From Leadbettera azotonutricia ZAS-9 (lineage in GTDB: Bacteria > Spirochaetota > Spirochaetia > Treponematales > Breznakiellaceae), in NCBI RefSeq assembly GCF_000214355.1, contig NC_015577.1, forward strand, positions 1,754,453 through 1,818,452: a DNA stretch of 64,000 bases. Reading direction: 5' to 3'. Each line of letters starts with the position of its first letter. Position 1 is the first letter of the stretch. The notes below the pieces were generated by a model. It saw only the letters and a program-made list of their open reading frames with translations, was not told where the DNA came from and made no database searches. Of the stretch, positions 32,251 to 60,735 are shown piece by piece. Made by a program: the position numbers and the translations under genes.

Positions 32251-35200
32251 TTATTCCCTGGCGTTCATGATAAGCATCTGCAAACGGTTCTCGATGTTGG
32301 CAAAGCTTGTGTCAGGATCATAGTCCAGGGGCAGTATCTGAATCCCGGGGAAGTCTTCCTTAAGCCGCTTGACAACCCCCCGTCCTGAAATGTGGTTGGG
32401 CAGGCAGCCAAAAGGCTGGAGTATGATGAAGGATCGCACCCCGGCCCTGGCATGATGGATAATTTCCCCCGGTATGAGGTAGCCCTCTCCTGATGTAAAA
32501 GTGCGGTGCATGACGGGGTCAGCAAGGTCGGCAAGATCCGGCAGCCGCATGGAGGCCTCGTATAAAGGATGCTGGAAAGCGGTTTTTTCCAGGGTCGTCA
32601 CAATAAAATTAAACAGGCCGTCCCCGATATGGGCGAACAGTATCCCCTGAAAGGGACGGCTTACATGGAAATCCTTCACCTCCGATTTCATGCGGACATA
32701 GTCCCGCCAAAACACGTCGGCCAGCCGGGGCATAATCACTTCCATGTTGTATTTTTCAAGATACGATTCGACTTCAAAATTGGAACCCGGATGAAAGCTA
32801 AGCAAAAATTCCCCGGTGATGAGCACCTGGCCCTTGCGGCTGCTGCGGTCATAGGGGATTTCGCAGAACGAGGCGATGCCCTTTTTGTACGCCTTTATGG
32901 CGGCGGCTATCCCTTTGCGGGCCAGGCCGTCCATAATGGCATCCATGGCATTGGAAAACACCTGGTCTGTTTCTCCCTGGTTCTTTTCGTAAGGCCGTAT
33001 CTTGCGGCGGAGATCTTCCAAAATATCCGCCATAATCAGGCCCCAAATTACGCGTATTTCAAAGACAAGCTCCAGCCTGAAACCGGGAAACATATTTTTC
33101 GAATCAAGCTTGTCGGTAGTGATAATAGGCACATGGCCGAAACCGGCCTCGTCAAAAGCTTTGCGGGCAAGGCTTGTGTACTGGGCAAGGCGGCAGTCGC
33201 ACTGGTACTTTCCCATGCCGATAGCCAGCTGGTGCGTATCGTATTTGCCGCTTTCCAGGACCGAAAGGGCTTCGCCAATGTTCATCTGCGCAGGAAAGCA
33301 AATGTCGTTATGCACATATTTTTTCCCAAGCTTTATCGCGTCCCGCCCGCCCATGGGCAGAGGTTCCACATTAAAGCCCTGCCGGGCAATGGCGGCGCTT
33401 ACGATTTGGCAGAACGCCCGGGATACATTGGGTATCAGAATTGTCTTTTTTTTCCAGTCCTGTTTTGTGAATTTTACCGGATAGGGATCTTTAAGGCTGC
33501 GGGGCTTCTGGGTTATTCCCTTTGCCCTGCGGGTTTTGACTGTTTCGATAAACGATTTCACCCTGAGCGTGAGAGGGCCCGAGATGCTGCTCTCGTCGAG
33601 TTTTAAGATAAGCGGCGTCTTGCCGGAAATTTCGTTCAAAACCCGGATCACTTCGTCGGACAGAATCGCATCGTGGCCGCAGCCAAAGCTGACAATCTGC
33701 ACATACTCCAGTGCAGGATGCTGGGCCACGGCAATAGCGCCGGAAAGAATTCTGGAGTGAAAATTGTTTACAATTTCGGTACGGGTCAGTTTTAAATCAA
33801 TCTGGTTGATCCCCGGAAGGGAATCGACGGTGAGAACCGGAATGCCTTGCTGGATAAAGCAGCGGGAAAGGTCGTGGTTCACCAGTTCGTCGTTATGATA
33901 GGGGCGGCCTGCGAGGACTACCGCAAAGGCGCCGGGCTTCTTTTCAAGATCCGCAATAACCTGCGCCCCATGGGAACGCAGATCTTCCCGGAATGTTTTA
34001 AGCGCCGCAGATCCCTGGTCAATGGCCTCCCGGGTGACATGAGGCGCCAGATTGAAGGTGTTTTGCATAAAATCGCAAATCTGCCGGTTCCGGTCTTTTT
34101 CGCTGAACCAATGAAACATGGGGGTATCAAAGATGGTGTTCCATCGCCGTGCGGGATTGTCGGAATATTGAATGACCAGAGGGTAGCCCTTTACCACTGC
34201 ACATAGGTGATCGCTCAGGGGATCGATATTTTCGGAAGGGTTCCGGATGATCATAGGCATAAAAATACGATCCACATGGGAATCCGCCAAATCCCGGATA
34301 TGGCCGTGCACCAGTTTTGCAGGAAAGCAGATAGTGTCGGAGGCCACGAATGGAAGGCCCTGTTCAAAAATATGCCGGCTGCTGGGCCGGGAAATTTGAA
34401 CTTTAAAACCTAACGATTTCCAGAAGGTAGTCCAAAAGGGCATGCTGTCCCAAAATTCAAGGCTCCTGGGCAGACCAATGGTAATGTCCTTCTCCGGATT
34501 GACCAGCGCAAAAGGATAATTTTTGAAAAGAAGGGCGTCCCGTTTCTTCATCAAATCCGGTACCCCGTCAAGCTCTTCGGTTAGCTGTTTTACCTTTTCC
34601 CGGATTTTGGTATCCTTCAGATCCCCGATGATTTCTCCGCGCTGGCACCTGTTGCCGGTAACATAAGTCGTGCCGCTGGAGAAGCGGAGCAGCGTGCGGC
34701 TGCAGTTGTTGCTGCAAAACCTGCATATCGAATTCGATTCCTGGGTATAATTGAAATCTTTCATCGCCCCAAGGCCGATGAAGCGGCTTGAAAAGTCCGG
34801 CGTTTCCTCCACATGCTTCTTGGTAAGGAGCGCAATGCCGATGGCGCCTATTTCGCCAGGATAAGGAGATCTGGTAATGGGCTTCCCGGTGTATTGCTCC
34901 AATGCCCGGAGCACCGCATCGTTTTTGAAGGTTCCGCCCTGGACTACAATTTTATCTCCAAGGCTTGCAAAGTTTGACACCCTGACTACCTTGGTAAAGA
35001 CATTGTCAATGATGGACCGGCAGAGGCCCGCCATAAGATCATCGGCCTGTTTTCCGTTGCGCTGTTCCGTGATAATGCAGCTGTTCATAAAGACCGTGCA
35101 GCGGCTCCCCAGTTCAGCAGGATCTTTTGCGTCAAAGGCCGCTTCCGCTATCTCCGCAACAGGGATATTGAGGGATTTGGCAAAATTTTCCAGAAACGAT

Positions 35201-36624
35201 CCGCATCCTGCGGAACAAGCCTCGTTGAGGGTTATATCGGTGACAATGTCCCTGGCAATGGTAATGGCCTTCATATCCTGGCCGCCGATATCCAGGATGA
35301 AGGTTGCGCCAGGCACATATTTCCGGGCAGCTGCCGCATGGGCTACAGTTTCCACACTGTGATAATCCGCCCGCAATGCCTTGTAAAAAAGCAATTCCCC
35401 ATAGCCGGTGGTTCCGGCAGCAATGATCTCCAGGGTAATGCCAAGGTCCTGGTATTTTTTGTCAAGCTTGATAAGGGCATCCCGTATAAGGTGCAGCGGA
35501 TCGCCTGAATTGTTGGAATAGAACGTGTCGATCACATTTTCGTTTTCATCAAGGAGCACGAATTTGGTGGTAGTTGAGCCTGAATCAATGCCAAGATACA
35601 CCCGCAGTGCCTGTCCCCGCTGCAAGCCTGCCGCCGTAGGGACAGGAACTTCAAAGGGCTTATGCCTCTCATAGAAAGCTTTTTTTTCTTCTTCCGAATC
35701 AAACCACGCTTTTTGGGGCCTTTGGGTTTCGACCGACAGATGATCCCTATACGAGGCAAGAGCCGTCAAGCCCGCTTTTGCGTCGAATTCCTCCTGGCGA
35801 TCCGCGAACAAATCCCCCAGCGAAAGCGCCGCCCCGCAGGCAACCAGGGTCTCAGGCGACTTGGGCCATATAATGTCATCTTCATTTAAATTGAGCCGTT
35901 CCGAGAAAACCCGGATAAGGCTTGGGTTAAAGGTGAGGGGGCCTCCCTCGAAAGTGATGGGCGGCTTGAGTTCAAGGCCCTGGGCAAGGCCGCCTATGGT
36001 CTGCTTGGCAATCGCATGGAAGGTTGAAAGGCAGATGTCCTCTTTCCGGGCACCCTGGTTCAGCAAGGGCTGGATATCGGTCTTGGCAAATACACCGCAG
36101 CGGCCCGAAATATCGTATACAAAAGTGCCTTTTGCGGCATAAGCTTCAAACTGCTCTACAGGAATTTTAAGCAGCGACGCCACTTCGTCGATGAACGCGC
36201 CGGTGCCTCCGGCGCAGCTCCCGTTCATCCGCATGTCAGAAGCGTTAAGCTTGTTTGTCGCCTTGTCGTAATAGAAAAAGACGATTTTTGCGTCCTGGCC
36301 GCCTAGTTCAATGGCAATCCGCGTTTTTGGATACAGCCTTTTTATGGCAATGGAATTGGCAACAACTTCCTGGACATAGGGGACTTGCAGAAGGCCGGCA
36401 ATGCTTTTGCCTCCTGAACCGCATACTGCAGCGCGGAAACGGGTATCAGGAAATTGTATCGATATTTCGGACAGCAGATCATGGACTGTTTCTATCTGCC
36501 GGGCATTATGCCGGGTATAGCGTGAAAAGATGGATGTATTTGTTTGTGGGTCCACGATGACGGCTTTTGCTGTGGTGGAGCCCACATCAATGCCTATCCA
36601 CAGGCAAGAAGAAACTTGACTCAT
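32251..36624 (-). CDS. Giant 2-hydroxyacyl-CoA dehydratase activase-like protein (two BcrAD/BadFG domains + DUF2229)
   Basis: A 1457-residue cytoplasmic protein. Two ASKHA-fold activase domains: residues about 5-300 (GIDVGSTTAKAVIVD, NGSCAGGTGAF, SGRCGVFAKTD) and about 343-640 (GIDSGSTTTKFVLLD, EACSAGCGSF, SRCTVFMNSC). Both keep the cysteine pair that holds a [4Fe-4S] cluster between subunits. A Cys-rich stretch (SICRFCSNNCSRTL...NRCQRGE) follows, then DUF2229 (ITIGLPRSLEFWDSMPFW) and a C-terminal HgdB-like half. Homologues drive ATP-dependent electron transfer to dehydratases or related radical reactions. No dehydratase subunit genes lie nearby, so the substrate is unknown. It suits a strict anaerobe. 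Confidence 0.88.
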   Translation of the reverse strand: MSQVSSCLWIGIDVGSTTAKAVIVDPQTNTSIFSRYTRHNARQIETVHDLLSEISIQFPDTRFRAAVCGSGGKSIAGLLQVPYVQEVVANSIAIKRLYPKTRIAIELGGQDAKIVFFYYDKATNKLNASDMRMNGSCAGGTGAFIDEVASLLKIPVEQFEAYAAKGTFVYDISGRCGVFAKTDIQPLLNQGARKEDICLSTFHAIAKQTIGGLAQGLELKPPITFEGGPLTFNPSLIRVFSERLNLNEDDIIWPKSPETLVACGAALSLGDLFADRQEEFDAKAGLTALASYRDHLSVETQRPQKAWFDSEEEKKAFYERHKPFEVPVPTAAGLQRGQALRVYLGIDSGSTTTKFVLLDENENVIDTFYSNNSGDPLHLIRDALIKLDKKYQDLGITLEIIAAGTTGYGELLFYKALRADYHSVETVAHAAAARKYVPGATFILDIGGQDMKAITIARDIVTDITLNEACSAGCGSFLENFAKSLNIPVAEIAEAAFDAKDPAELGSRCTVFMNSCIITEQRNGKQADDLMAGLCRSIIDNVFTKVVRVSNFASLGDKIVVQGGTFKNDAVLRALEQYTGKPITRSPYPGEIGAIGIALLTKKHVEETPDFSSRFIGLGAMKDFNYTQESNSICRFCSNNCSRTLLRFSSGTTYVTGNRCQRGEIIGDLKDTKIREKVKQLTEELDGVPDLMKKRDALLFKNYPFALVNPEKDITIGLPRSLEFWDSMPFWTTFWKSLGFKVQISRPSSRHIFEQGLPFVASDTICFPAKLVHGHIRDLADSHVDRIFMPMIIRNPSENIDPLSDHLCAVVKGYPLVIQYSDNPARRWNTIFDTPMFHWFSEKDRNRQICDFMQNTFNLAPHVTREAIDQGSAALKTFREDLRSHGAQVIADLEKKPGAFAVVLAGRPYHNDELVNHDLSRCFIQQGIPVLTVDSLPGINQIDLKLTRTEIVNNFHSRILSGAIAVAQHPALEYVQIVSFGCGHDAILSDEVIRVLNEISGKTPLILKLDESSISGPLTLRVKSFIETVKTRRAKGITQKPRSLKDPYPVKFTKQDWKKKTILIPNVSRAFCQIVSAAIARQGFNVEPLPMGGRDAIKLGKKYVHNDICFPAQMNIGEALSVLESGKYDTHQLAIGMGKYQCDCRLAQYTSLARKAFDEAGFGHVPIITTDKLDSKNMFPGFRLELVFEIRVIWGLIMADILEDLRRKIRPYEKNQGETDQVFSNAMDAIMDGLARKGIAAAIKAYKKGIASFCEIPYDRSSRKGQVLITGEFLLSFHPGSNFEVESYLEKYNMEVIMPRLADVFWRDYVRMKSEVKDFHVSRPFQGILFAHIGDGLFNFIVTTLEKTAFQHPLYEASMRLPDLADLADPVMHRTFTSGEGYLIPGEIIHHARAGVRSFIILQPFGCLPNHISGRGVVKRLKEDFPGIQILPLDYDPDTSFANIENRLQMLIMNARE

Positions 36625-36706: not shown

Positions 36707-38341
36707 ATGAAAGCTGACAAGCGGGTCGTTTTTGCAATCGTGCTTTGGGGCCTCACAGCCGGGGCCGCGAGCCTGTTTTCGCTCCCTTTTACCCTGATTT
36801 CCGCCGGAAACCCCCTGCTGGACGATATACGCTTCCTTGTCAGGGAGTCGGGCAATAGTTTTCGTTCCCTGACGCCTCCCTTGTCCCGGGACGAGGTTCT
36901 GCAAATTTTGGATGAAGTTGACGGGCCCTCCCTGTCGGGCAGTGCGCGGGAAGCCTATGACCGGGTATCCGCTGCCTTGAACCCTTCCCTGCTGTTTTCG
37001 GAGGGCCTCTTTGGCCTGTCTTTCCATGCCTCATTTGCCCCAGAAATCCATGCAAGGACCAATACGGCTATTCCCTATACCCGAAAGGATACAGAAAGCC
37101 CCATGGCCATTTCGTTCCCGGTAACCCTGTTCTTTGCCGACACCCTTCAGCTTAATTTTACCCCCATGCTTTCCGCCGACCCCAGCTATTACGCGGAAGA
37201 CGGCGCCCATTGGGGGACAAACATTCCCTATGAGCCGGCGCGGTTTGACCTGAATATGCCGCTGCGGGCTTTTGTCGCGGCAGGGGGGGCATGGTGGAAT
37301 GTGCAGCTTGGCCGGGACAAGGTGTCCTACGGGGCGGCCCATACAGGGAATCTCGCCCTTTCCGCGTCCCCCGATTACTATGACTTTGCCCGGTTTTCCT
37401 TCTTCGCGCCCAATTTTAAGTATTCTGCATTTATCAGCCAGCTTCCCCTGAATATTAAGGATCTCCTCGCCGATGGTGTGGCGCCTCCTCCCGACAGCCT
37501 TGGAAGCACCACCAAACGGTATATGTACCTCCACCGCGTCGATGCCCGGTTCTTCCACCGCATTTCCCTTGGGGCCAGCGAAGGCATTATGGTGGGGAAT
37601 TCTGCGCCGGAAATTCGCTTCCTCAACCCCTTTGCCATTTTTCATTCGTTTTTTGCCTGGCTGGATTATGACAAATGGGGCGACGGCGACATGGTAGGCT
37701 CCCTTTTTTCCTTGGACCTTGATGTGGCGATTATCCCGTCCTTGGCTTTTTATGGGCAGTTTGTGATGAATGAGTATTCGACCCCCTATGAACGGAAAAA
37801 TTGGCCGGATCAGGCGCCGAATGGCCTCGGATATTTGGCAGGCCTCGAATATACCCATGGGTTCAAAAACTGGAACGGCATTTTTTACGGCGAATTTGTG
37901 TATACGGATCCTTTCCTTTACACACTTTCAAGCCCCTTTGGGAGCTTTATCTCCATGCGCCGCCTCTCGGATGTGGGGGCAAAGAGCCTGCGTTATTCCT
38001 GGATTGGCCACCCCGAAGGCCGGGATACCATGCTTTTTGCGCTGGGCGCGGGTTTTTCAAAAAAAGATTTGGCCCTTTCTGTCGATGTTTCCTTCGTCAA
38101 TAAGGGAGAGCATACCCTGCAATGGGATTGGGATATGTCCCATGAATCCCGGAATGCGAGCACTCCCAGCGGGATTGCGGAACACCGGTTGACCGCCGGC
38201 CTGGCAGCGGAGTGGCAGCCCTTTGCCTTCCTTGCTTTATCAGGGTATATCGGGGGCGCTATGTCCATCAATGCGAACCATGAGTCCGGAACGAATGAAT
38301 ACGGTATGGAGTTCGGTTTTTCCGCCGCTTTTACTTATTAG
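36707..38341 (+). CDS. Wzi-like capsule-assembly outer-membrane protein (copy 1)
   Basis: A 544-residue exported beta-barrel candidate: signal sequence (VVFAIVLWGLTAGAASLFS), a helical region (about 30-105) and then many alternating aromatic strands typical of the capsule-assembly Wzi family (NVQLGRDKVSYGAAHTGNLALS; EIRFLNPFAIFHSFF; ending in FGFSAAFTY, an outer-membrane-like aromatic C-terminus). E. coli Wzi holds capsule at the surface. It is divergent from the activase gene and converges on a CDP-alcohol phosphatidyltransferase gene, overlapping it by 11 bases. Confidence 0.75.
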   Translation: MKADKRVVFAIVLWGLTAGAASLFSLPFTLISAGNPLLDDIRFLVRESGNSFRSLTPPLSRDEVLQILDEVDGPSLSGSAREAYDRVSAALNPSLLFSEGLFGLSFHASFAPEIHARTNTAIPYTRKDTESPMAISFPVTLFFADTLQLNFTPMLSADPSYYAEDGAHWGTNIPYEPARFDLNMPLRAFVAAGGAWWNVQLGRDKVSYGAAHTGNLALSASPDYYDFARFSFFAPNFKYSAFISQLPLNIKDLLADGVAPPPDSLGSTTKRYMYLHRVDARFFHRISLGASEGIMVGNSAPEIRFLNPFAIFHSFFAWLDYDKWGDGDMVGSLFSLDLDVAIIPSLAFYGQFVMNEYSTPYERKNWPDQAPNGLGYLAGLEYTHGFKNWNGIFYGEFVYTDPFLYTLSSPFGSFISMRRLSDVGAKSLRYSWIGHPEGRDTMLFALGAGFSKKDLALSVDVSFVNKGEHTLQWDWDMSHESRNASTPSGIAEHRLTAGLAAEWQPFAFLALSGYIGGAMSINANHESGTNEYGMEFGFSAAFTY

Positions 38342-39023
38342 CGGATTGAATTGAAATTTTTCTTGCCAGCTTGATGATAGTTGCCAGGCAGCCGCCCAGA
38401 TAAAACAGCAAATTGAAGGCAACAATAAAAATCATGCCTCCGGTAAAATGGCAGACAATCAGGGCCGGCATCAAGAACCCGGTAATGCCCACATTTTCCG
38501 CCAGTTTCCGTTCAAACGATACTGAGCCATGGGCTTCCTCGCCTACGATGTTCTTATATATCTGGTAGGCAACACGGGTAAGCAGATTGGCCGAAGCTGT
38601 AACGGCGGCAATAACCAGAACCAGCCAACAGCCCCCCCGCAGATAAACGTAAATGCCGGTGGAAATGAAAACGCAGGTGTAAGCCACAAAGCCCATAACC
38701 GCGTCTGCCCAGCCGCCCCAGGGGCTTGCGGTATGGGTAACCCGGGCAATATTGCCGTCCACGCAATCCAGGACAGAGAAACAATTAAACAGTATCGCCC
38801 CCCAAAGGGGAAGCCAAAATCCGTTCATTGAAAAAAGAACGCCTCCGGCAATGCTGAAAAGGGATGATATATAGGAAACCCCATTGGCCCCAAAATGGAG
38901 CCGCAAGGCTGCCCATGCAACCGGGATGGAAAGAGGCCGCAAAACGAATCTGGTCCATAAACCATCAGCCCGGTTTTTTTCCGGCGGCAGGGAAGCGGAT
39001 ATATCATGCAATGTAAAAGCCAT
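38331..39023 (-). CDS. CDP-alcohol phosphatidyltransferase-family protein lacking the fourth catalytic Asp
   Basis: A 230-residue membrane enzyme of the CDP-AP family, which moves a phospho-alcohol from CDP-alcohol. The motif D-x2-DG-x2-AR-x8-G-x3-D-x3-D is recognisable in FSVLDCVDGNIARVTHTASPW and then GGWADAVMG, but the last Asp, the proposed catalytic base, is Gly. Six hydrophobic helices surround it. AAGGGG lies correctly before ATG 39023, so the longer start at 39044 is rejected; that start would also lie on a promoter. It may use a variant chemistry or be inactive. Next to glycan genes it may make a polyol-phosphate linkage. Confidence 0.82.
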   Translation of the reverse strand: MAFTLHDISASLPPEKNRADGLWTRFVLRPLSIPVAWAALRLHFGANGVSYISSLFSIAGGVLFSMNGFWLPLWGAILFNCFSVLDCVDGNIARVTHTASPWGGWADAVMGFVAYTCVFISTGIYVYLRGGCWLVLVIAAVTASANLLTRVAYQIYKNIVGEEAHGSVSFERKLAENVGITGFLMPALIVCHFTGGMIFIVAFNLLFYLGGCLATIIKLARKISIQSANK

Positions 39024-39037
39024 TAATTTCCCCTTAA

Positions 39038-39067
39038 TTGACATAGAAACGGTTTCTTTTTTATGAT
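39038..39067 (+). promoter_or_regulatory. Sigma-70 promoter of the GT / YidC-sulfatase / GPT operon
   Basis: TTGACA (39038-39043), 18 bases, TATGAT (39062-39067) predict a start near 39074, only about four bases before the glycosyltransferase ATG at 39078. The transcript would be nearly leaderless, in keeping with the absence of a ribosome site. Confidence 0.6.
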
Positions 39068-39077
39068 ATTATTAATT

Positions 39078-40121
39078 ATGACTATTGTCCATGTTCTTGA
39101 ACCATTTGCTACGGGAATTACCACAGCAGTATTAAGCATAACCCGGCAGCTGGCGGGATTGCAGCATATTGTGGTTCATGGTTCCAGAACAGGATCGGAT
39201 ACAGAGGAAAACATAAAAAAGAAATTCCCCCAGGCAGTGCGTTTTATACCCTGGCCCTCGGCCGGGAGGGAAATCAATCCGTTAAAGGATATCCGCGCGT
39301 TAAAGGAGCTTTTAAAAATAATAAAGCCCTATAAAAATTCCGATGCCGTGATCCATCTCCATTCGTCCAAGGCCGGGTTCCTGGGCAGAATAGCATGCCG
39401 GCTCCTGGGCATAAAAAAGGTCATTTATACGCCCCATGGGGCTTCTTTTATACGAACCGATATCAGCGGATTAAAAAAGGCATTGTTCCGTTCCCTTGAA
39501 CGAATCGGGGGCTGGTTTGGTGGTATCGTGGTAGGATGCGGGAAATCAGAAGCCGGGTTGTACAGCAGCGCGTTGTGGGTATCAAACGGCGTTGAAATTA
39601 CCCCTGCGGCGAAGGATGTCGATCCGCATTTGGTAAGCTTTGCCGGCATAGCCAGCGTTCAAAAAGATCCCGCCCTTTTTAACCGCATCGCCGAAATGGC
39701 AAAGGGGGAAACATCCTTTTGCTGGATAGGGGATGGTCCTTTGCGGGGCAGCCTTAAATCGAAAAATATAACAGTTACCGGATGGACCGATAAAAAGACT
39801 GTGGATGGTTATTTGGCAAAGACCCTGGTTTACCTGTCCGCGTCAGCCTGGGAAGGGCTTCCCTTCGGCGTATTGGAAGCAATGAATGCTTCCTGTGCAT
39901 TGTTGCTGCGGAATGTGTACGGGAACCGGGATCTTGTTTTATCCGGCAAGAACGGCTATTTGTTCAATGACGAGGGCGAAGCGGCATTGCTGCTTGCCAA
40001 AATGCTTAAAAACAAAACAGAAACCATTACTATGGGCCTGGAAAGCCGGGCCATGGCACAATCCCTGTATTCGGAAGAAAAAATGGGCCTGGAGTACGGT
40101 AAAATATATGCCGCTATCTGA
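39078..40121 (+). CDS. GT-B glycosyltransferase, family 4-like
   Basis: A 347-residue glycosyltransferase. The N-terminal Rossmann half has MTIVHVLEPFATGITTAV and IHLHSSKAGFLGRI, and YTPHGASFI. The C-terminal donor half carries FCWIGDGPLRGSL, VYLSASAWEGLPFGVLEAMNASCALL and the E-x7-E-like pattern of GT4 enzymes. The ATG at 39063 is inside the promoter -10 region, so 39078 is chosen. Its 3' end overlaps the YidC-sulfatase gene by 14 bases, tying it to that module. The sugar is unknown. Confidence 0.85.
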   Translation: MTIVHVLEPFATGITTAVLSITRQLAGLQHIVVHGSRTGSDTEENIKKKFPQAVRFIPWPSAGREINPLKDIRALKELLKIIKPYKNSDAVIHLHSSKAGFLGRIACRLLGIKKVIYTPHGASFIRTDISGLKKALFRSLERIGGWFGGIVVGCGKSEAGLYSSALWVSNGVEITPAAKDVDPHLVSFAGIASVQKDPALFNRIAEMAKGETSFCWIGDGPLRGSLKSKNITVTGWTDKKTVDGYLAKTLVYLSASAWEGLPFGVLEAMNASCALLLRNVYGNRDLVLSGKNGYLFNDEGEAALLLAKMLKNKTETITMGLESRAMAQSLYSEEKMGLEYGKIYAAI

Positions 40122-42765
40122 TCTGCTTTATACTTTTTTTATCTGGCCCATACGGATAATAATCGAATTCCTTTTTGTCCTTTTTAACCGGACTTTTTAT
40201 GATGCCGGGCTGGCAGTTGTTTTTTTAAGCCTTGCTGTAAACACCATACTGCTTCCGATTTATGCTGTTGCCGACAAGTGGCAGCAGGAAGAACGGAATC
40301 TGCAAAAAGGGATGAAAAAAAAGCTGACCGACATAAAGGCTGTCTTTAAGGGCGATGAACGGCAAATGATCATCAATGCCTACTACCGGCAGATGGGATA
40401 TTCCCCATTGTCCGCATTGAAATCCAGCATAGGATTGCTTCTGCAAATACCGTTTTTTATCGCGGCCTATCAATTGCTATCCCATACCCCGTCCCTGGCA
40501 GGGGAATCTTTTTGGGTTTTGAAAAACCTTGGCAATCCCGACGGCTTTATCCATGCGGGGAATAGGGCGATCAATATCATGCCTTTCATTATGACTGCGG
40601 TGAATATCGCTTCCGCTTTTATATACACCAAAGATTTGGGCAGACGCGAAAAAATACAGCTCTTCGGAATTTCCCTTGTTTTTTTGGTATTATTATATAA
40701 TTCCCCATCAGGATTGGTGCTTTACTGGACCTGCAACAATATATTTTCCCTGGGCAAAAATATAGCCGCCTCAAAATTAAAGCACCCCGGTAGAATGCTC
40801 CAGATAGTAACTTCCGCCTTTGCGATTATCCTAATAATCGGCGCGCTTTCCGGTATTTTTGACATTGACCGCTACAGGTTTTTATTTGCCGGAATTGGTT
40901 TTGCCCTGTTCCTTGCGCCTTTTGCCTGGAAGCTGTTGACGCGGTACGCGGTCACCCTGAAATCCCCGTTTACGGAATGGCGGCTTTTATACTTTTCTTC
41001 CATAGCTTTGCTTTGTTTGATTCTTGGCGCCCTTATCCCCGGGCAGGTCATTGCGGGATCGGTTTCCGATTTCTCCGCGCCCTGGCAATTCTTGCTGCGA
41101 ACCTTTATTCAATCCATTGCATTTACTGTTTTGATCCCTTTACTTGTATGGGCTTTCGCCAATAGGGATGTCAGGAAAATCCTTGCCATTGGTTTTGGGA
41201 TAATTGCCTTTTTGGCCCTTGTATGCCTGTTCGCCTTAAGCTCTTCCTATGGCGTCATGACCAATAGCTTCAAAATAGAAGATACCCAATTGATCGTCAA
41301 GGCGTTTCCATTCTGGGTTAACCTTGCTGCGGCCGCTGTATCGATTATAATTCCCGCTGTTTTCGTGTTGATTAAAAAACAGAAAATCCTTGCTTCCCTG
41401 TATAATGCAACCGCTCTGGCAATTCTCGTTATGGCAATTATTAATATGGCAGGCATCAATAGGGAAATCAGGGAGCTTGAAAAAATCAGGAATTCCGCCC
41501 CGGTAGCAAACGAATCTGTCTCTGTGTTTCCTTTTACAAGCAAAGGGACAAATACTTTTGTAATGTTTCTTGACAGGGCTCTTGGCATAGCCATGCATAC
41601 CGCCCTGGAGCAGATGCCCGAATTAAATGCAAAATTGGACGGCTTTACCTGGTATCCAAACACCCTTTCTTTTGGGCATTGCACTATTACCGGCCTTCCG
41701 GCATTGATGGGGGGATACGATTATACCCCGGAAAAAATCGATCTGCGAAAAGATGAATTGCTAAAAGATAAGATAAACGAGTCTCTCACTGTATTGCCAA
41801 AATTATTCGGGGAAGCAGGGTACAGGGTTTCGGTTTCCGACCCTACCATGACTAATATGCAGCTTATTTCTGATATTTCAGTTTTTAAAGGCATGAAAAA
41901 TGTCACAGCCCAAAACCTTGACGGGCGTTTTAGCAAGCGCTTCATGGAAGAATTCCCCCATGAGGCTGAGCAGCTTATCGATAGTTTTGATTTTGATATA
42001 TTATTCCGCTATGGGCTTTTCAGGGTTGCATTGCCGGCACTTCGTTACGGCATCCATTATAAAGGAATCTGGTGGCGCGACGGTGCGTCCAATGCGTATG
42101 GCCGGGGGGTAACTGAATACGCAAGCCTTTATTATTTATCCGATTTTTGTGCCGTCGATGAAGGGCCTGATACGCTGAATATTTTTACCAATGAGACAAC
42201 CCATGAACCAGGGGCGTATGATTCAAGCCTTTTGCCTGTGCCCGGCTTAATCCATTATGACGAAGTAGAAATCGCTGCATTTGGTTCCGAGGACAATGCA
42301 AGCTATATGTATACATTTATGTCGGCTATGAAAGCCGTAACCCGCTGGATTGATAGCCTTAAAGAAATGGCGGTATACGATAATTCACGGATTATCATTG
42401 TTTCCGATCACGGCAACGGCTTTGACACTGACCTCTTTGAAGGAAGCGGTATGGAAGCCTATAATCCGCTGCTATTGGTAAAGCAGCCTGGCGCAAGGGG
42501 AAGCCTGTCCATATCGCACGAATTTATGACAAACGCCGATGTCCCATCCCTGGCGACAGCGGATTTTAAAGGTGCAATCAACCCTTACCTGGGTACACCC
42601 ATAAATATGGCTTCAAAAAGCGGAACTTTGACTGTGGCGCAGGCAGTATCTTCCCAGCCCCGCCGTCATGGCCCGTACCAGTTCAGCCTTGCAAGAACAC
42701 GGAAGCTTCTGGAAAAGGATATTTTCAGCGCCCTGTCATGGGCCGATTGGCAGGGGAACAAATAA
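40108..42765 (+). CDS. YidC/Oxa1-like membrane domain fused to LTA-synthase/sulfatase-like domain (copy 1)
   Basis: An 885-residue fusion. Residues 1-240 resemble the YidC insertase core: FLSLAVNTILLPIY, GDERQMIINAYYRQMGYSPLSALKSS, LLLQIPFFIAAYQLL and PSGLVLYWTCNNIFSL. The groove Arg usual in insertases is Asn45. A further bundle of about eight helices (240-470) leads to an alkaline-phosphatase/sulfatase-fold domain expected outside the membrane: Asp489 (FLDRA), a likely nucleophile Thr526 (GHCTITG), and Asp767-His768 in VSDHGNG. This resembles LtaS-like phosphoglycerol transferases. It overlaps the TagB/F-like gene by one base (TAATG). Inference: it transfers or polymerises a phospho-alcohol on a surface glycan. 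Confidence 0.85.
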   Translation: MPLSDLLYTFFIWPIRIIIEFLFVLFNRTFYDAGLAVVFLSLAVNTILLPIYAVADKWQQEERNLQKGMKKKLTDIKAVFKGDERQMIINAYYRQMGYSPLSALKSSIGLLLQIPFFIAAYQLLSHTPSLAGESFWVLKNLGNPDGFIHAGNRAINIMPFIMTAVNIASAFIYTKDLGRREKIQLFGISLVFLVLLYNSPSGLVLYWTCNNIFSLGKNIAASKLKHPGRMLQIVTSAFAIILIIGALSGIFDIDRYRFLFAGIGFALFLAPFAWKLLTRYAVTLKSPFTEWRLLYFSSIALLCLILGALIPGQVIAGSVSDFSAPWQFLLRTFIQSIAFTVLIPLLVWAFANRDVRKILAIGFGIIAFLALVCLFALSSSYGVMTNSFKIEDTQLIVKAFPFWVNLAAAAVSIIIPAVFVLIKKQKILASLYNATALAILVMAIINMAGINREIRELEKIRNSAPVANESVSVFPFTSKGTNTFVMFLDRALGIAMHTALEQMPELNAKLDGFTWYPNTLSFGHCTITGLPALMGGYDYTPEKIDLRKDELLKDKINESLTVLPKLFGEAGYRVSVSDPTMTNMQLISDISVFKGMKNVTAQNLDGRFSKRFMEEFPHEAEQLIDSFDFDILFRYGLFRVALPALRYGIHYKGIWWRDGASNAYGRGVTEYASLYYLSDFCAVDEGPDTLNIFTNETTHEPGAYDSSLLPVPGLIHYDEVEIAAFGSEDNASYMYTFMSAMKAVTRWIDSLKEMAVYDNSRIIIVSDHGNGFDTDLFEGSGMEAYNPLLLVKQPGARGSLSISHEFMTNADVPSLATADFKGAINPYLGTPINMASKSGTLTVAQAVSSQPRRHGPYQFSLARTRKLLEKDIFSALSWADWQGNK

Positions 42766-44051
42766 TGAAATTGATTTATATTGCGTTTTTTCTGATATTC
42801 TTTGCATCCCCTGTTTTTGCCTATATCGATCCTGGTACCGGAAGCATGCTTTTTTCATTATTAACCGGTGTGGCAGTCACGGCCTTTTTCTTTTTCAAGA
42901 ATGTGCTTATCAAAATAAAAGACGGCACATTATTTGAAAGGTTCCTGGGCAAAGGAAAGACCATCGGCTCCGATAAACACCATTCCCTGGTTATCTATTC
43001 GGAGGGGAAGCAATATTGGAATGTATTTAGGCCGATACTCGAAGAATTGGTAAAACGCAAAATCCCCTGCGCTTATTGCACCAGCGGCGAAGACGATCCG
43101 GGCCTTTTGTTTTCCGGGCCGGCGGATATGCCGGGCCTGATTAAAAAGGAATTTATCGGTAAGGGGAATACCGCATACCGCTTTCTGAATTTTCTGGAAG
43201 CGGATATCTGCCTTATGACAACACCGGGCCTTGATGTATTGCAGATTAAGAGATCGCCTGGGGTAAAGAAGTATATTCACGTCCTCCATATGGTAACAGA
43301 TCCGACAACCTATCGCCTTTTTGGCCTGGATTATTACGATCAGATTTTGTTGACCGGCGAGTATCAAAAGAAGGATATACGGGAACTGGAAGAAAAAAGA
43401 GGAACAAAACAAAAAGAATTGACAGTTGTAGGCTGCACTTACCTTGATGTCATGTCGGAACGCCTTGCTGATTTGCCCCCAAAAGACGCTGCAAAAACAG
43501 TGCTGGTAGCGCCATCCTGGGGCGAAAACGGAATTTTGAAACGCTATGGCTTAAAGCTCCTTGAGCCTCTGGCGCTTTCTTCATATAAAATAATCATTCG
43601 CCCCCATCCGCAGAGCGTTATTTCAGAAAAGGAAACCCTTGAAAAAATCCAAAAGGATCTTGCCCGCTTTGAAAACATTGAATGGAATTTTGATGCCGAA
43701 AACATTAAGGCCCTGTCCAGGGCGGATATCCTTATTTCTGATTTTTCCGGTGTTATTTTTGACTATGCTTTTTTGTTCAACCGGCCTGTAGTGTACCCCA
43801 GGTTTGAATTTGACAAAAGGCCGTACGATTTGTCGGACATTGACGACGAAGCCTGGACTTTTCGGGCCATACGGGAAATCGGCTTGCCGGTGGATGAGAC
43901 GCAATTTAAGGACATTGAGGGGATTTTGGATAGGGTTATGGGGGAGAAAAAGAGGGGGGAATCAACCAAAAGGTTAAAAGATGAGGCCTGGATGTATCCA
44001 GGGGAAGCAGGAATGCGCATCGTGGATGCGCTGGGTATCCACGATGTTTAA
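42765..44051 (+). CDS. Membrane-anchored CDP-glycerol glycerophosphotransferase-like protein (copy 1)
   Basis: A 428-residue protein with a signal-anchor (LIYIAFFLIFFASPVFA), the motif YIDPGTGSMLFS and a second helix (LLTGVAVTAFFFFKNVLI), then a GT-B domain of the TagB/TagF type: LVIYSEGKQYWNVFRPIL, LMTTPGLDVLQIKRSPGVKKYIH, VVGCTYLDV, APSWGENG, IIIRPHPQS and ISDFSGVIFDYAFLFNRPVVY. The last two hold the catalytic-site residues conserved in teichoic-acid polymerases. It should add a phosphoglycerol (or similar polyol phosphate) from a CDP donor. ATG 42765 overlaps the previous stop by one base. Confidence 0.85.
   Translation: MKLIYIAFFLIFFASPVFAYIDPGTGSMLFSLLTGVAVTAFFFFKNVLIKIKDGTLFERFLGKGKTIGSDKHHSLVIYSEGKQYWNVFRPILEELVKRKIPCAYCTSGEDDPGLLFSGPADMPGLIKKEFIGKGNTAYRFLNFLEADICLMTTPGLDVLQIKRSPGVKKYIHVLHMVTDPTTYRLFGLDYYDQILLTGEYQKKDIRELEEKRGTKQKELTVVGCTYLDVMSERLADLPPKDAAKTVLVAPSWGENGILKRYGLKLLEPLALSSYKIIIRPHPQSVISEKETLEKIQKDLARFENIEWNFDAENIKALSRADILISDFSGVIFDYAFLFNRPVVYPRFEFDKRPYDLSDIDDEAWTFRAIREIGLPVDETQFKDIEGILDRVMGEKKRGESTKRLKDEAWMYPGEAGMRIVDALGIHDV
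44018..44046 (+). terminator. Possible terminator hairpin at the end of the GPT copy 1 gene
   Basis: A perfect 10-bp inverted repeat CATCGTGGAT (44018-44027), nine-base loop, ATCCACGATG (44037-44046) spans the last codons. Only a short T-run follows, so termination strength is doubtful. Confidence 0.3.
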
Positions 44052-44069: not shown

Positions 44070-45722
44070 TTACCACCGCCAGGCGCCGCCCATGCTCCAG
44101 TAGTGGCTGATACCGTTATTGTTCTTTACCGGTCCATATTCGCCGCCGCGGTTCCATCCGTATTCAAAAACATAATCAATATTAAAAGACAATACCCCGA
44201 CTTTAATGGCAACAGATGGCAATGTCCATTTAATGCCCAAGCCGCCTGCAAGGCGGGTATCGATAGTGTCCTGGGTTAAGAAATGGACTTTGCTGTAGTT
44301 GTTGCCTTCTATTGTGTCGCCATCATCAAAGATATCGCCGTTATGGTATTCATCTCTATCATCCGGGCTAATGCTATTAGGGTCTCCATCATAATAAGAT
44401 CCGGGGGGCAGCGGTTCTGACGCATTTCCGTGCCTGGTAAAATATGCGGACATGTTGATATCAAAATCAGGATGGGTCCGCCATACTGCCTTTAGTGCGA
44501 GTCTGTCTGAATTCGGCAGCAAATCAGTCCCAAGGTTCCTTCCCATGTGGGAATAATTGAGGTAATTTGGTTTGTCTGAATAACGATATTCATCCGGATG
44601 GTTCCAATGGGTGTACATATAAGGAAAGACCATGGTGTAGTTCCCTGTTAGGGATGCAAGAGGGCCCTCTTCAGGCGCCCAGGTAAGTCCGAATTCCCCT
44701 GCAAATTTAAGTTTAGTGTTGAACTTAAAGCGCATTAAATCATTCAGGTGCATATCGTCAATATAGACTTGGGTCAGGAATTGCAAGTTATGGGGGGCGT
44801 ACCAGCGGACATGGAAACCCATAAAAGAATTATCCTCAAAATCGCCGGTCAAGGACTGTGCGCCGAACAAATTGGTAAAGGGGACAATATACAGGAATTC
44901 AAAGCGGCCGCCCCATACCACAGATTCAAGATACCCGAATTCCAAATTCGGCAAGGGGTTGAAATTAAAAGAATGGAAGATCAGGAATTTTTGGGGGAAC
45001 AATTTTTCATTTAAATCATCAGAAGCGGTAATTGCCAGCATGAGCATTTCGAAGGAAAATTTGGGATGCCGGTAATTAAGGCTAAAGTGCCCGGCCCGTG
45101 CTGCCTGAGGGCCTACCACAGTCCCGTTGTCATAAAAAGGCCCTACGCTGGTGCGGTTAAGCCCTGCCTGAAAAAAGAAATTATGCGTTCCAATGCCGAG
45201 GGTTGACGTCCAATCCTGAAACAGATTAAAAGGTCCGATATTCGCAGTATCGGAAACAAGGTCAGGAAAGGGCGAATAAGTACCCGGGACAGTATATTCA
45301 GTGCCTGGCTTTTTTGTAGCGCCATAAATAAACATGGAATAGCTTGCCCCTATCCAATCCCGCAAGCGTATACTGCCATCAGCAAAGAAAGCGCCTTCTG
45401 CTGTGAGGTCATCATTCAAGCTTACAATATTGCCTTTGACTCCGGCGTGGATCATGCGGTTGCCTGGGGCTATATTGTTTTTGTAGATAGCAGCTTTATC
45501 GCGGGCCTCCTGGTTGCCGTTTTCAATCACCTGGCTAAGAAGATCGTCCAGAACCTGGGCAGGGTAGGGCCGTATAAGGGGCAATGCAGATATTATATAC
45601 CGGCGAACCGCCCATCGATCTATATCTTTATAAATTGGATCGTTTGGATCATGGATAAACTGGGCGCCAAGAGCGCTTAAAAAAAGAAAAGCCAGCAGTG
45701 CTGCAATAATAAGTCTCTTCAT
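44070..45722 (-). CDS. Wzi-like capsule-assembly outer-membrane protein (copy 2)
   Basis: A 550-residue exported protein with signal LIIAALLAFLFLSALGAQ, then IYKDIDRWAVRRYIISALPLIRPYPAQVLDDLL, a helical stretch found at the start of Wzi-family proteins, and a long beta-barrel region (RAGHFSLNYRHPKFSFEML, ESVVWGGRFEFLYIVPFTN). It ends SHYWSMGGAWRW, an aromatic outer-membrane signature. AGGAG stands well in front of the ATG. It is the last gene of the long minus-strand glycan operon and is convergent with the plus-strand GPT gene. A role in fixing the surface polymer is inferred. Confidence 0.78.
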   Translation of the reverse strand: MKRLIIAALLAFLFLSALGAQFIHDPNDPIYKDIDRWAVRRYIISALPLIRPYPAQVLDDLLSQVIENGNQEARDKAAIYKNNIAPGNRMIHAGVKGNIVSLNDDLTAEGAFFADGSIRLRDWIGASYSMFIYGATKKPGTEYTVPGTYSPFPDLVSDTANIGPFNLFQDWTSTLGIGTHNFFFQAGLNRTSVGPFYDNGTVVGPQAARAGHFSLNYRHPKFSFEMLMLAITASDDLNEKLFPQKFLIFHSFNFNPLPNLEFGYLESVVWGGRFEFLYIVPFTNLFGAQSLTGDFEDNSFMGFHVRWYAPHNLQFLTQVYIDDMHLNDLMRFKFNTKLKFAGEFGLTWAPEEGPLASLTGNYTMVFPYMYTHWNHPDEYRYSDKPNYLNYSHMGRNLGTDLLPNSDRLALKAVWRTHPDFDINMSAYFTRHGNASEPLPPGSYYDGDPNSISPDDRDEYHNGDIFDDGDTIEGNNYSKVHFLTQDTIDTRLAGGLGIKWTLPSVAIKVGVLSFNIDYVFEYGWNRGGEYGPVKNNNGISHYWSMGGAWRW

Positions 45723-47931: not shown

Positions 47932-49121
47932 TGTTTTGAAGCTTTATTTCCCTTCTGTTTAAGATATTCTTTCATGGTATTTTCAAATTTTCCAGCCCAG
48001 TCAAAATGATAAACAGACTTACGTTCAGCACAAAGTTTTCTAATATGCAAATAGAAAGAATTATTTGTGATACATCTCTCTATAATGGTTGTTATTTCCG
48101 GTATATTGCCAGATTCAAAAAGTAATTCAGGGTATTGAAGCATATCGGAAAGACCCCCAACAGATGATGCAATCACCGGGCAATCAGTATGAAGAGCCTC
48201 AAGTACCGTGTCAGGAAAAGCATCATAAAGGGTAGGGTAGACCATTAGATCGCATTCCGCGAGATAGGGGAAGGGATCTTTAAAGCCTTCTATGCAAACC
48301 ATATCTTCGACATTAAGTTGTTTTATAAGTTGCAGAGTTTGAGCAACGTTTTCTTTTCTTCCTAGTGCAAAACAGCGCAAAAAGCCAAACCCTTTTTTCT
48401 TTAAATCTGCAAGAGTTTTTAGCAAATCCCAAAAGCCCTTACCGGCAGAAATAGAACCAATATAAACTATTTTTTCCATTTTTGAAGAAATGTTTTTATG
48501 TTCCCATTCAGGAGTACATCTGGGCAGTCCTATATTCCCTGGAATAATAATTGTTCTAGATTTATCGCATTTAGTTCTTGCAAGAAAGCAATCACGATCT
48601 TTACTGTTTTGAAAAGTGACTAAATCAGCGTAATGTCCGATCTGCCCTTCACGAAATTTGTTAATTGGTATATTTAATAACGAAAAAATATATTCCTTCG
48701 GAGTTAACTTTCCGTATAAGCGTAATATTTTAGCTCTATCAATGTCATTACAGCGCGAAGCATAGAATAAAGGGCATTTTAATTTTTTTTTTAGTAATAA
48801 TGACGATTTTATATTTATGTCGCCATGTATGTGAATAATATCCATTGAGGAAAATCCTTTGTTTATTATTTCTGTTTTAATTTTATTTAAATTATTGTTA
48901 ATATGTTTTTTAAAAAGCCAAGAGGCGGGAGGTAAATGATGGCGAACATATTTAACAGATATCTCAATTTTATTAAAAAAATGCGGCGTATAATCTAGAA
49001 AGGCATTCATTATAACAAAAACATTGTTTTTCCGCTCAGCCAGTAATTCCATGAGTTCAAGGTAACGCCGATCCCCGCCAGTACGGATTTGATTAAGAAG
49101 AAATATGCCAAGTATAGTCAT
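47928..49121 (-). CDS. GT4-family glycosyltransferase
   Basis: A 397-residue GT-B enzyme. N-terminal lobe: LLNQIRTGGDRRYLELMELLAERK and MDIIHIHGDINIKS. C-terminal lobe: KIVYIGSISAGKGFWDLLKTL, DPFPYLAECDLMVYPTLYDAFPDTVLEALHTDCPVIASSVGG, the standard GT4 donor-binding region. AT-rich codon use. It overlaps the upstream gene by four bases, and the YidC-sulfatase copy 2 gene is two genes upstream in the same transcript. Confidence 0.87.
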   Translation of the reverse strand: MTILGIFLLNQIRTGGDRRYLELMELLAERKNNVFVIMNAFLDYTPHFFNKIEISVKYVRHHLPPASWLFKKHINNNLNKIKTEIINKGFSSMDIIHIHGDINIKSSLLLKKKLKCPLFYASRCNDIDRAKILRLYGKLTPKEYIFSLLNIPINKFREGQIGHYADLVTFQNSKDRDCFLARTKCDKSRTIIIPGNIGLPRCTPEWEHKNISSKMEKIVYIGSISAGKGFWDLLKTLADLKKKGFGFLRCFALGRKENVAQTLQLIKQLNVEDMVCIEGFKDPFPYLAECDLMVYPTLYDAFPDTVLEALHTDCPVIASSVGGLSDMLQYPELLFESGNIPEITTIIERCITNNSFYLHIRKLCAERKSVYHFDWAGKFENTMKEYLKQKGNKASKQ

Positions 49122-49996
49122 TTTTTTAAATTCCCTCGAAATGTTCTTGTTTTTATATCTCGTAACATATATTTATCTGTATAATTTATGGTATGGGTAC
49201 AAACCGCATGAAGATTTCGCTCAGGAAGATATGTATTAATTAGTTTTTCTTTATAAGAAAATGGTGTCAATTCCATAATTTCATTAATATTTGTTTCTTT
49301 TCCATAATCTTTAAGGCAATTTTGAGCAGGCCGATAGGGGGACCTATTTTGTGTATTATAAAAAACCGTCCCGGCCATACGGCTATTTTCAAGATTGGAA
49401 ACTAAGGGATTTTGTAAATGAGGAGTCCAAGTATCAGAAGGGAAGGAATTGGAATAAAAAGCAGATAAATTTTTGTTTATAGGATCAGGTTTTGTTTCAA
49501 TATTTGTAAAAAGCCACCATTTTTGATTATAATAAAAAACTGTTGAATCAACCGCAATAACATTATGCATTAAGGTCATTGTGTAATCCCATTTATAAGG
49601 GAAATCGGAGGCTTGATACAGATCGATGGTATTATTTTCATGAGTTTCCGGAATCATATACCAAATATCGTTATTGCCTTCTCTTATACAAAAAACATTG
49701 GGAAACGAAAGATGATAATTTTTTTCTAAAATAGGCGTAAGAACCGAAATAGTTAAATCAGGGTAGAGTTCAATTACCCCTAAAGTTCCATTTGCACTTC
49801 CCAACTGCTGCTCTATAAAGATATAAGTTTTGCCATTATATTCAACTGGAAAGGGATCAGCCCATTGGCAATTTATAGGAGGGATTATGGTTTTAAGTAT
49901 ATTGCCATCAGGATCGCAAACCAAAAGCGACCATTGTTCATAAAAAAAAGTACGAAGTAATTTCTTTTTAATCCTAAATAAAGTTATAGGTTTCAT
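49118..49996 (-). CDS. Beta-propeller-like protein of polysaccharide loci (GIPC glucosamine-transferase N-terminal-like)
   Basis: A 292-residue protein with repeated beta-strand patterns rather than a signal or helices: EQWSLLVCDPDGN, CQWADPFPVEYNGKTYIFIEQ, DIWYMIPETHENNTIDLYQ, WWLFTNIET and SRMAGTVFYNTQNRSPYRPAQNC. This resembles the five-bladed propeller found at the N-terminus of glucosamine inositolphosphorylceramide transferases and in similar bacterial glycan-locus proteins; I am only moderately sure. It may modify or bind a glycan. It overlaps the YidC-sulfatase gene by four bases. A damaged copy lies at 54.0-54.5 kb. Confidence 0.6.
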   Translation of the reverse strand: MKPITLFRIKKKLLRTFFYEQWSLLVCDPDGNILKTIIPPINCQWADPFPVEYNGKTYIFIEQQLGSANGTLGVIELYPDLTISVLTPILEKNYHLSFPNVFCIREGNNDIWYMIPETHENNTIDLYQASDFPYKWDYTMTLMHNVIAVDSTVFYYNQKWWLFTNIETKPDPINKNLSAFYSNSFPSDTWTPHLQNPLVSNLENSRMAGTVFYNTQNRSPYRPAQNCLKDYGKETNINEIMELTPFSYKEKLINTYLPERNLHAVCTHTINYTDKYMLRDIKTRTFRGNLKK

Positions 49997-52770: not shown

Positions 52771-53992
52771 CTTTTAAGATCCGTTCTCTTGTTGAAACCA
52801 AGAAATCCACTGTCCGTACCGCACTTTCGCCTATATACTGCCATGCCGTTTCTTTTGCCATTTTACGGGCGGCCTGCAATTCTTCGATGGCAGAAGCTTT
52901 TTTTATAATTTCTTCTATATTACATAATTCAGCCTCTTTTAATTCAATACCAAAAGTTTTCAAGGCTTCAAATTTCCATGGAGGGGTGTCTAGATCACTG
53001 TCATCATACATTTTGATATTATAATGAGCGGTAGTATAAATTACTGGTTTATTAAAAAGAAAAATATAATTGAGAACAATAGAAGAAAAATCTGAAATCA
53101 TTATATCTGAATGGGAAAGAGAAATTAATTCGTTAAGAGAATTATCCCATTCAATATTTTTATTATCCTTGTACCGTGTTTCAAGGCGGGAAAGCATCTC
53201 GGTTTCCTGTTTTTTACTCTGGGGATGAGGGCGGATAATAATGCGCCAGCTGGTTTTTACCAGAGGGTCAAGAAGATTTTCGCCAAAGGCTTTTAATAAA
53301 GTTCCTTCTCCCCAGGAGGGAGAAATCAGGACGGTAAAGATATGATTCTCTTCAGCAGGAATGGACTTGATTTTATCGTTATATACATCAAGGTAGGTAC
53401 ATCCGACTACCGGAAGTTCCTTTTTTGGCGTACCTCTTTTGGCTTCAAGAAGCCTGAGTTCTGCCACTTGATATTCCCCGGTAAGGAGTACTGAATCAAA
53501 CCAATCTGTACCAAAAAGACGATAGCTTGTAGGATCATCGGGACTATGGAGTATATGGGCATAATGAGACACGCCTTTAGATCTTTTAAGCTGATAAACT
53601 TCAAGGCCGGGTGTGGTCATAAGACATATATCAGCTTCGAGCAGATTTAAATGCGCAAAGGCCTTGTTGCCTTCACCGATATATATACCTTTAATATACT
53701 GATAGCTTTCGTTGAAGAAATGATCTTTTTCTGCTGAAGTTAAATAGGTAACATTTATATTCTTTTTTTCAAATTCATCAAGAATGGGTTTGAATATATT
53801 CCAATATTGAGACCCTTCACAATAAATAACAAATGATTCATGATTTGCTGCTTCTTTGTTATTTGATCCTGAAAAAAAGAATTTTATTTTGATGATCAAT
53901 GCTCGTGAAAAAAAATAAAGAGCCGCCGCTAATCCCATAATTATGGAGAAAAGCATACTTCCAGTTCCGGGGTCAATGTAGAGTAAAAACAT
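52763..53992 (-). CDS. Membrane-anchored CDP-glycerol glycerophosphotransferase-like protein (copy 2)
   Basis: A 409-residue paralogue of the 42.8-kb protein. It begins with a hairpin membrane anchor bearing YIDPGTGSMLFS and lacks the longer signal of copy 1. The TagB/TagF-type domain follows: FVIYCEGSQYWNIFKPIL, LMTTPGLEVYQLKRSKGVSHYAH, VVGCTYLDV, ISPSWGEG, IIIRPHPQS and ISDFSSIVLNYIFLFNKPVIY. Gene order relative to the YidC-sulfatase is reversed compared with copy 1 (here it comes first in the transcript), yet the two stay adjacent and overlapping. Confidence 0.85.
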   Translation of the reverse strand: MFLLYIDPGTGSMLFSIIMGLAAALYFFSRALIIKIKFFFSGSNNKEAANHESFVIYCEGSQYWNIFKPILDEFEKKNINVTYLTSAEKDHFFNESYQYIKGIYIGEGNKAFAHLNLLEADICLMTTPGLEVYQLKRSKGVSHYAHILHSPDDPTSYRLFGTDWFDSVLLTGEYQVAELRLLEAKRGTPKKELPVVGCTYLDVYNDKIKSIPAEENHIFTVLISPSWGEGTLLKAFGENLLDPLVKTSWRIIIRPHPQSKKQETEMLSRLETRYKDNKNIEWDNSLNELISLSHSDIMISDFSSIVLNYIFLFNKPVIYTTAHYNIKMYDDSDLDTPPWKFEALKTFGIELKEAELCNIEEIIKKASAIEELQAARKMAKETAWQYIGESAVRTVDFLVSTRERILKDA

Positions 53993-60706: not shown

Positions 60707-60735
60707 ATTCCCGGATTTAAGAGCGAAGTGCAACA
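60707..60735. repeat. Left terminal inverted repeat of the IS30 element
   Basis: Begins ATTCCCGGATTTAAGAGCG and overlaps the last codons of the transposase. It pairs with 61801-61829 with about seven mismatches in 29. Confidence 0.65.

Follow-up and report, generated by a model that had tools for sequence, protein, structure and literature searches.

Two gene pairs in the window

The window analyzed here is a 64-kb stretch (C1:1754453-1818452) of the Leadbettera azotonutricia ZAS-9 genome, a single contig (C1) of 3,855,671 bp. It contains two copies of a gene pair made up of a YidC/Oxa1-sulfatase fusion (FUS) and a TagF-like protein with a YIDPGTGS membrane anchor (GLY). FUS1 (40108-42765, forward strand, 885 amino acids), assigned from Pfam, AlphaFold and family alignments, is followed by GLY1 (42765-44051, forward strand, 428 amino acids), which has the fold of a cytidine diphosphate (CDP)-glycerol phosphotransferase. 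The overlapping gene run opens with a glycosyltransferase of family 4 (GT4; 39078-40121, forward strand; Pfam Glyco_trans_1_4, 2e-13). The coordinates and overlaps given in an earlier note on this DNA were right: the FUS1 gene starts with ATG at 40108, 14 nt inside the GT4 gene, and the GLY1 gene with ATG at 42765, 1 nt inside FUS1 (TAATG). A second, paralogous pair, which that note did not contain, lies at 49993-53992 on the reverse strand, adjoining heptose-type sugar genes. It consists of FUS2 (49993-52770, 925 amino acids, 33% identity to FUS1) and GLY2 (52763-53992, 409 amino acids; PF04464, 2.6e-7), which overlap by 8 nt.

The N-terminal part of FUS1 (residues about 1-225, 40108-40782, forward strand) is a YidC/Oxa1 domain of six helices. 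Pfam 60KD_IMP matches residues 34-220 with E=2e-23 and 83.3 bits (cut-off 35), and the NCBIfam model yidC_oxa1_cterm gives 90.5 for FUS1 against a cut-off of 84.3 and 80.2, just below it, for FUS2. This domain assignment rests on sequence; the match lists of the structure searches with FUS were filled by the ectodomain. The cytoplasmic C1 loop is conserved and positively charged, with the motif FKGDE, and the C-terminal YidC motif PSGLVLYW is kept. When FUS1 is aligned by phmmer with YidC2 (3wo6; E=8e-6), N45 (codon 40240-40242) stands under the groove Arg, and this position is N, S, T, Q or C, never K or R, in all 64 FUS sequences. A positive groove residue is described as 'strictly conserved' in YidC proteins (PMC8920935). 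Its loss suggests, short of proof, a role other than insertion, and makes plausible the view of the earlier note that the YidC fold serves as a membrane platform rather than as an insertase.

Seven transmembrane helices are predicted downstream of the YidC domain (residues about 226-463, 40783-41496, forward strand; AlphaFold/DSSP and loop charges); the helix count places the conserved C1 loop inside the cell and the ectodomain outside. The ectodomain (residues 474-885, 41527-42762, forward strand) belongs to the alkaline phosphatase superfamily. By sequence, FUS1 gives only a weak match to Pfam Sulfatase, with 21 bits against a cut-off of 25. The AlphaFold model, built from alignments made in this analysis (predicted local distance difference test score, pLDDT, 89), has the sulfatase/alkaline phosphatase fold at residues 479-885, with VIA-align Z scores of about 20 to choline sulfatase, phosphonate monoester hydrolase, LtaS (2w5r, 19.7) and EptC (19.6). 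The earlier note's description of a YidC-like N-terminus joined to an LtaS/sulfatase-fold domain was thus borne out. The top Foldseek match of FUS is PbgA.

Residues D489, T526, H699, D767 and H768 are invariant in the alignment of 64 FUS sequences. The Thr motif aligns to that of Escherichia coli EptA (SFGHCTITGLP and SCGTATAVSVP; HHalign E=0.0018, 25% identity over 87 residues, with a probability of only 15%); the EptA-type N-terminal membrane domain gave no Pfam match in FUS at E<=0.1. The first metal ligand is Asp in FUS and Glu in LtaS and EptA. Some members of the family may have lost or altered their activity, such as L149 (L149:1788-4337, reverse strand), in which a YidC domain is joined to a strongly diverged ectodomain with an unrecognizable Thr nucleophile motif, beside GLY and a phosphoenolpyruvate (PEP) mutase. 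Locus L148 (G173:C1:2072500-2090000) holds a tandem array of divergent YidC-sulfatase genes with one intact copy of 952 amino acids; several others are broken into separate frames for YidC and sulfatase (367+578 and 340+257+260 amino acids), by frameshifts, phase variation or decay.

GLY1 matches Pfam Glyphos_transf (PF04464) with 2.8e-9 and 36.8 bits against a cut-off of 22.1, in agreement with the earlier note, which had called it CDP-glycerol-phosphotransferase-like. The best Foldseek match of the AlphaFold model (pLDDT 91) is TagF (E=1e-11, Z 19.5), with UDP-GlcNAc 2-epimerases, which share the GT-B-like fold, at similar Z. Profile matches include Cps3D (2e-9) and TarL (4e-4); the scores against the TarF and TarL equivalog models are far under the cut-offs (16.3 vs 550 and 14.3 vs 1000 bits). 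No variation occurs across 50 GLY sequences in the YIDPGTG motif at the start of the membrane anchor (residues 20-26, 42822-42842, forward strand), in the RxHP motif or in the Asp-x-Ser of SDFS. Genome-wide, there are just two Glyphos_transf genes and two YIDPGTG-type sites, all of them in GLY1 and GLY2.

Conservation of the pair

The sulfatase half alone was used as query against about 85,000 species genomes, which yielded 80 loci from Spirochaetota, Lachnospiraceae and other Clostridia, and Coriobacteriales. The family is therefore not confined to spirochaetes; the earlier note had inferred a spirochaetal modification. The same fusion with its partner was found again in hundreds of genomes, far beyond chance. 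The YidC half is present, or the open reading frame runs off the contig end, in 105 of 106 reading frames with the sulfatase half, and the one exception is split into two frames. The possibility that the fusion is an artefact of assembly or annotation was rejected on these counts.

In the neighborhood survey of YidC-sulfatase fusions, which the earlier note had proposed, TagF-like neighbors recurred: 57 of the 89 FUS genes that are not truncated have GLY within 300 nt, and for another 12 it is one gene away. The spacing in 41 adjacent pairs examined is -55 to +32 nt, in either gene order. All nine genomes whose FUS loci have no GLY nearby encode GLY elsewhere.

Among 393 Spirochaetota genomes, 102 hold both genes, three hold FUS only (all incomplete metagenome-assembled genomes), one holds GLY only and 287 hold neither. 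For this comparison an initial 128 FUS-positive genomes were reduced to 105 by dropping 23 in which the best match (E 1e-20 to 1e-24) was probably an ordinary YidC; one of the 102 co-occurrence genomes, G341, has a doubtful GLY match with only 27% identity. A second, independent set, 140 genomes from one Lachnospiraceae-type family, gave the same seven genomes for both genes, one of them being the chosen centre. The genome counts are non-independent owing to relatedness, and the pattern recurs across phyla. FUS and GLY almost never occur apart and are a real, conserved unit. Twenty genomes contain 41 distinct FUS and 23 distinct GLY genes, with ratios of, for example, 4:1 in G212 and 5:1 in G078, which suggests that several FUS proteins are served by one GLY.

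A search of the open-access literature for YidC-sulfatase fusions, for YIDPGTGS and for 2-aminoethylphosphonate (AEP) in Treponema turned up no paper that describes the module. FUS and GLY apparently form a two-enzyme module without earlier description.

Neighboring genes and probable cargo

Apart from FUS and GLY themselves, the gene family met most often in these neighborhoods is based on nucleotidyltransferases (25 of the 80 loci). Its members are PEP mutases that carry cytidylyltransferase domains (nine with the motif EDKxxxxxNS), fusions of a LicC-like nucleotidyltransferase to an aminotransferase, and a single nucleotidyltransferase joined to a choline/ethanolamine kinase. Phosphonopyruvate decarboxylase and, in some loci, iron alcohol dehydrogenase come after; the latter is neighbor cluster c34, for which an assignment as transaminase was rejected. 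The L139 operon has the order GT4-FUS-GLY-PEP mutase-decarboxylase-nucleotidyltransferase/transaminase, with variants in L127, L129, L130, L131 and L141, and a nucleotidyltransferase-transaminase sits between FUS and GLY in L048, L063 and L089. At L143:9807-12408 (forward strand), in a second spirochaete family, a nucleotidyltransferase-ethanolamine/choline kinase fusion and an EutH ethanolamine permease (E=2e-135) lie between GLY and FUS. A TagD-like relative of glycerol-3-phosphate cytidylyltransferase was seen only in the divergent sister clade L150/L151, which carries the motif YLDPGTGS; in L151 it is directly upstream of FUS-GLY.

The PEP-mutase fusion is found in 46 of 105 FUS genomes compared with 10 of 288 other Spirochaetota genomes; of the 47 genomes having both fusion and module, 27 have them within 10 kb of each other. 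Judged from their sequences, the common theme of these supply genes is activation of a phospho- or phosphono-alcohol by cytidine triphosphate (CTP). Genes supplying cytidine monophosphate (CMP)-AEP or CDP-ethanolamine/choline are far commoner than those for CDP-glycerol. The earlier note had proposed a phospho-alcohol modification or a teichoic-acid-like polymer. Its phospho-alcohol part stood, the neighbors of the pair handling phospho-alcohol head groups; glycerol phosphate as the default donor was demoted after the survey, and the default product was no longer taken to be a teichoic-acid-like polymer.

Phosphoethanolamine has AEP as its phosphonate isostere. In T. denticola, CMP-AEP is made by PntC (PMC6697681). 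A full AEP pathway is encoded at C1:125.7-129.9 kb of the present genome: PEP mutase with a cytidylyltransferase domain and the motif EDKIGLKKNS, phosphonopyruvate decarboxylase and AEP transaminase, with scores above curated cut-offs (TIGR02320, 403 vs 320 bits; TIGR03297, 481 vs 313; TIGR03301, 372 vs 361). Since the whole pathway is present, AEP appears to be the most likely cargo in this genome, without local linkage. A LicC-like nucleotidyltransferase lies 25 kb to the right of the window.

Other genes of the window provide context. A CDP-alcohol phosphatidyltransferase (38331-39044, reverse strand; PF01066, 9e-8) is divergent to the first gene run; the closest NCBIfam models, below cut-off, are inositol-phosphate transferases. 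A Wzi-like outer-membrane protein is encoded at 36707-38341 (forward strand; PF14052, 2e-6, slightly under the cut-off) and a weakly Wzi-like one at 44070-45722 (reverse strand; PF14052, E=0.028), with homologues in 10 and five of the compared loci, respectively; the former is a recurrent flank in Treponema loci. These three genes are present as the earlier note described them. The CDP-alcohol phosphatidyltransferase, which that note had drawn on for its reading, was rejected as a core partner: among the compared loci it is shared with one close relative only (L033). The heptose-type sugar genes beside the second pair (56571-58852, reverse strand) encode an HddA-like GHMP kinase and a nucleotidyltransferase-HAD fusion, with homologues near FUS in six and 11 loci. 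On this context, the acceptors may be a heptose-type glycan for pair 2 and a Wzi-flanked polysaccharide for pair 1. The gene adjoining FUS2 (49118-49996, reverse strand) has a strong match (E=2e-29) to the N-terminal domain of GINT1, glucosamine inositolphosphorylceramide transferase 1. Near pair 2, the polysaccharide region contains an IS30-like transposase (60717-61745, reverse strand; HTH_38 and rve). A protein of 1457 amino acids (32251-36624, reverse strand), encoded divergently from the Wzi-like gene at 36707, resembles, by eye only, a 2-hydroxyacyl-CoA dehydratase activase fusion.

Proposed function and relation to known systems

On the evidence of sequences and structural models, and with a probability of about 0.5, the FUS-GLY module would put a small phospho- or phosphono-alcohol head group, typically phosphoethanolamine or AEP, on a surface glycan or glycolipid in three steps: load, move and transfer. 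GLY, held by its YIDPGTGS anchor with the catalytic domain inside the cell, would draw the head group from CDP-ethanolamine or CMP-AEP and load it onto a carrier lipid in the membrane; the TagF fold, the invariant His motifs and the neighboring cytidylyltransferases argue for such a CDP/CMP-dependent loader. The YidC fold of FUS might, more speculatively, move or present the lipid-linked intermediate across the membrane. Lipid scrambling by YidC and other proteins of the Oxa1 group is reported in vitro and in silico, also for purified YidC (PMC10491306). The FUS ectodomain would then take the head group on Thr526 and hand it on to an acceptor outside, a role as extracytoplasmic transferase suggested by the intact Thr and metal site of the LtaS/EptA type. 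FUS paralogues would each serve a different acceptor, with GLY in common.

A further-reaching version is offered only tentatively: the YidC/Oxa1 fold may have been turned from an insertase into a transporter or presenter of lipid-linked phospho(no)alcohol, fused to its transferase and forming with the TagF-like loader an undescribed head-group relay to surface glycans that would supply the missing transfer steps of phosphonate tailoring.

Several points weigh against the load-move-transfer proposal. The AEP genes of this genome are about 1.67 Mb from the window, which makes AEP as the cargo here an argument by analogy, and 59 of the 105 FUS genomes have no PEP-mutase fusion, another source being shown for only some of them at most. 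GLY could act directly on a lipid-linked glycan, and Asp as first metal ligand may leave a phosphodiesterase role for FUS. Loss of the groove Arg is compatible with insertion, because E. coli YidC tolerates changes of R366 if the groove dome stays polar (PMC8920935).

The two proteins might instead be independent transferases, GLY acting in the cytoplasm on a lipid-linked oligosaccharide, as LicD and TagB do, and FUS adding a second group outside from an ordinary phospholipid, as EptA does, with the YidC part as mere anchor. LicD is the known transferase of the Lic-1 system (PMC10434233), the Thr motif of FUS is EptA-like and there is more than one FUS per GLY; this arrangement is nevertheless considered somewhat unlikely, and does not by itself explain the near-perfect co-occurrence across phyla or the universal keeping of the YidC half. 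A polymer of glycerol phosphate or another phospho-alcohol, resembling teichoic or lipoteichoic acid and made by GLY inside and FUS outside, would fit the closest relatives of GLY (TagF, Cps3D and TarL), the LtaS-like ectodomain and the TagD-like cytidylyltransferase adjoining the divergent clade. It is the less probable for the commonest supply genes, which yield amino-alcohol head groups without a free hydroxyl for chain extension, and for the GLY scores far under the TarF/TarL equivalog cut-offs, and is regarded as unlikely.

It is very unlikely that the YidC domain still works as an insertase or chaperone, with the insertion of the ectodomain or of GLY as its special task. Fold, C1 loop and C-terminal motif are kept, and E. 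coli YidC works without the groove Arg (PMC8920935), but a positive groove residue is absent from 64 of 64 sequences, a separate conventional YidC is encoded at C1:225503 in the same genome, and the domain is covalently joined to one enzyme family in three phyla. Least probable is a role of FUS as hydrolase or as regulator without catalysis (phosphodiesterase, sulfatase or PbgA/YejM-like sensor), to which the top structural scores to sulfatases and phosphonate monoester hydrolases and the Foldseek match to PbgA would point; the Thr in the nucleophile position, the invariant metal site and the constant pairing with donor-making enzymes stand against it.

By the account of Rice et al. (PMC6697681), bacterial phosphonate biosynthesis serves mainly cell-surface decoration, the steps after CMP activation are called enigmatic and later tailoring is left open. 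FUS-GLY is a concrete candidate for these steps, present in cultured Treponema and gut Firmicutes. If the head-group proposal holds, the YidC/Oxa1 fold would be used in lipid-linked glycan chemistry, in line with lipid scrambling by insertases (PMC10491306), and the module would open the outer-membrane glycolipids of Treponema, which are poorly understood, to genetic study.

Among known systems, Lic-1 (LicA, LicC, LicD) and PntC-dependent tailoring (PMC6697681, PMC10434233) follow the logic proposed for the module, in which a phospho- or phosphono-amino alcohol is activated with CTP and then passed to a surface glycan, and PntC-type genes occur within FUS-GLY operons; GLY and FUS would, however, replace LicD as transferase. 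GLY is like TagF, TagB, TarL and Cps3D (PF04464) in its GT-B fold, RxHP and SDFS motifs and score above the cut-off, and differs in the YIDPGTGS anchor, the low TarF/TarL equivalog scores and neighbors that supply AEP or ethanolamine donors. The phosphoethanolamine and phosphocholine transferases EptA, EptC, MCR and PptA belong to the same superfamily as FUS, and the Thr motif of EptA can be aligned (E=0.0018), but they use ordinary phospholipids without a CDP/CMP-dependent partner, and the N-terminal domain of EptA is not matched in FUS. LtaS and LtaP likewise carry a sulfatase-fold ectodomain with Thr and an Asp-His metal site on a multi-helix membrane domain, and transfer lipid head groups outside the cell, as FUS probably does. 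The membrane part of LtaS has five helices and no YidC domain, whereas that of FUS consists of a YidC domain and seven helices; FUS also has Asp in the place of the first metal ligand and is constantly paired with a TagF-like protein. Compared with YidC/Oxa1 insertases, FUS keeps the 60KD_IMP domain, the C1 loop and PSGLVLYW, but has lost the positive groove residue and is fused to an enzyme. MprF combines a head-group enzyme and a lipid flippase in one polypeptide, as proposed for FUS, with unrelated folds and chemistry (aminoacyl transfer).

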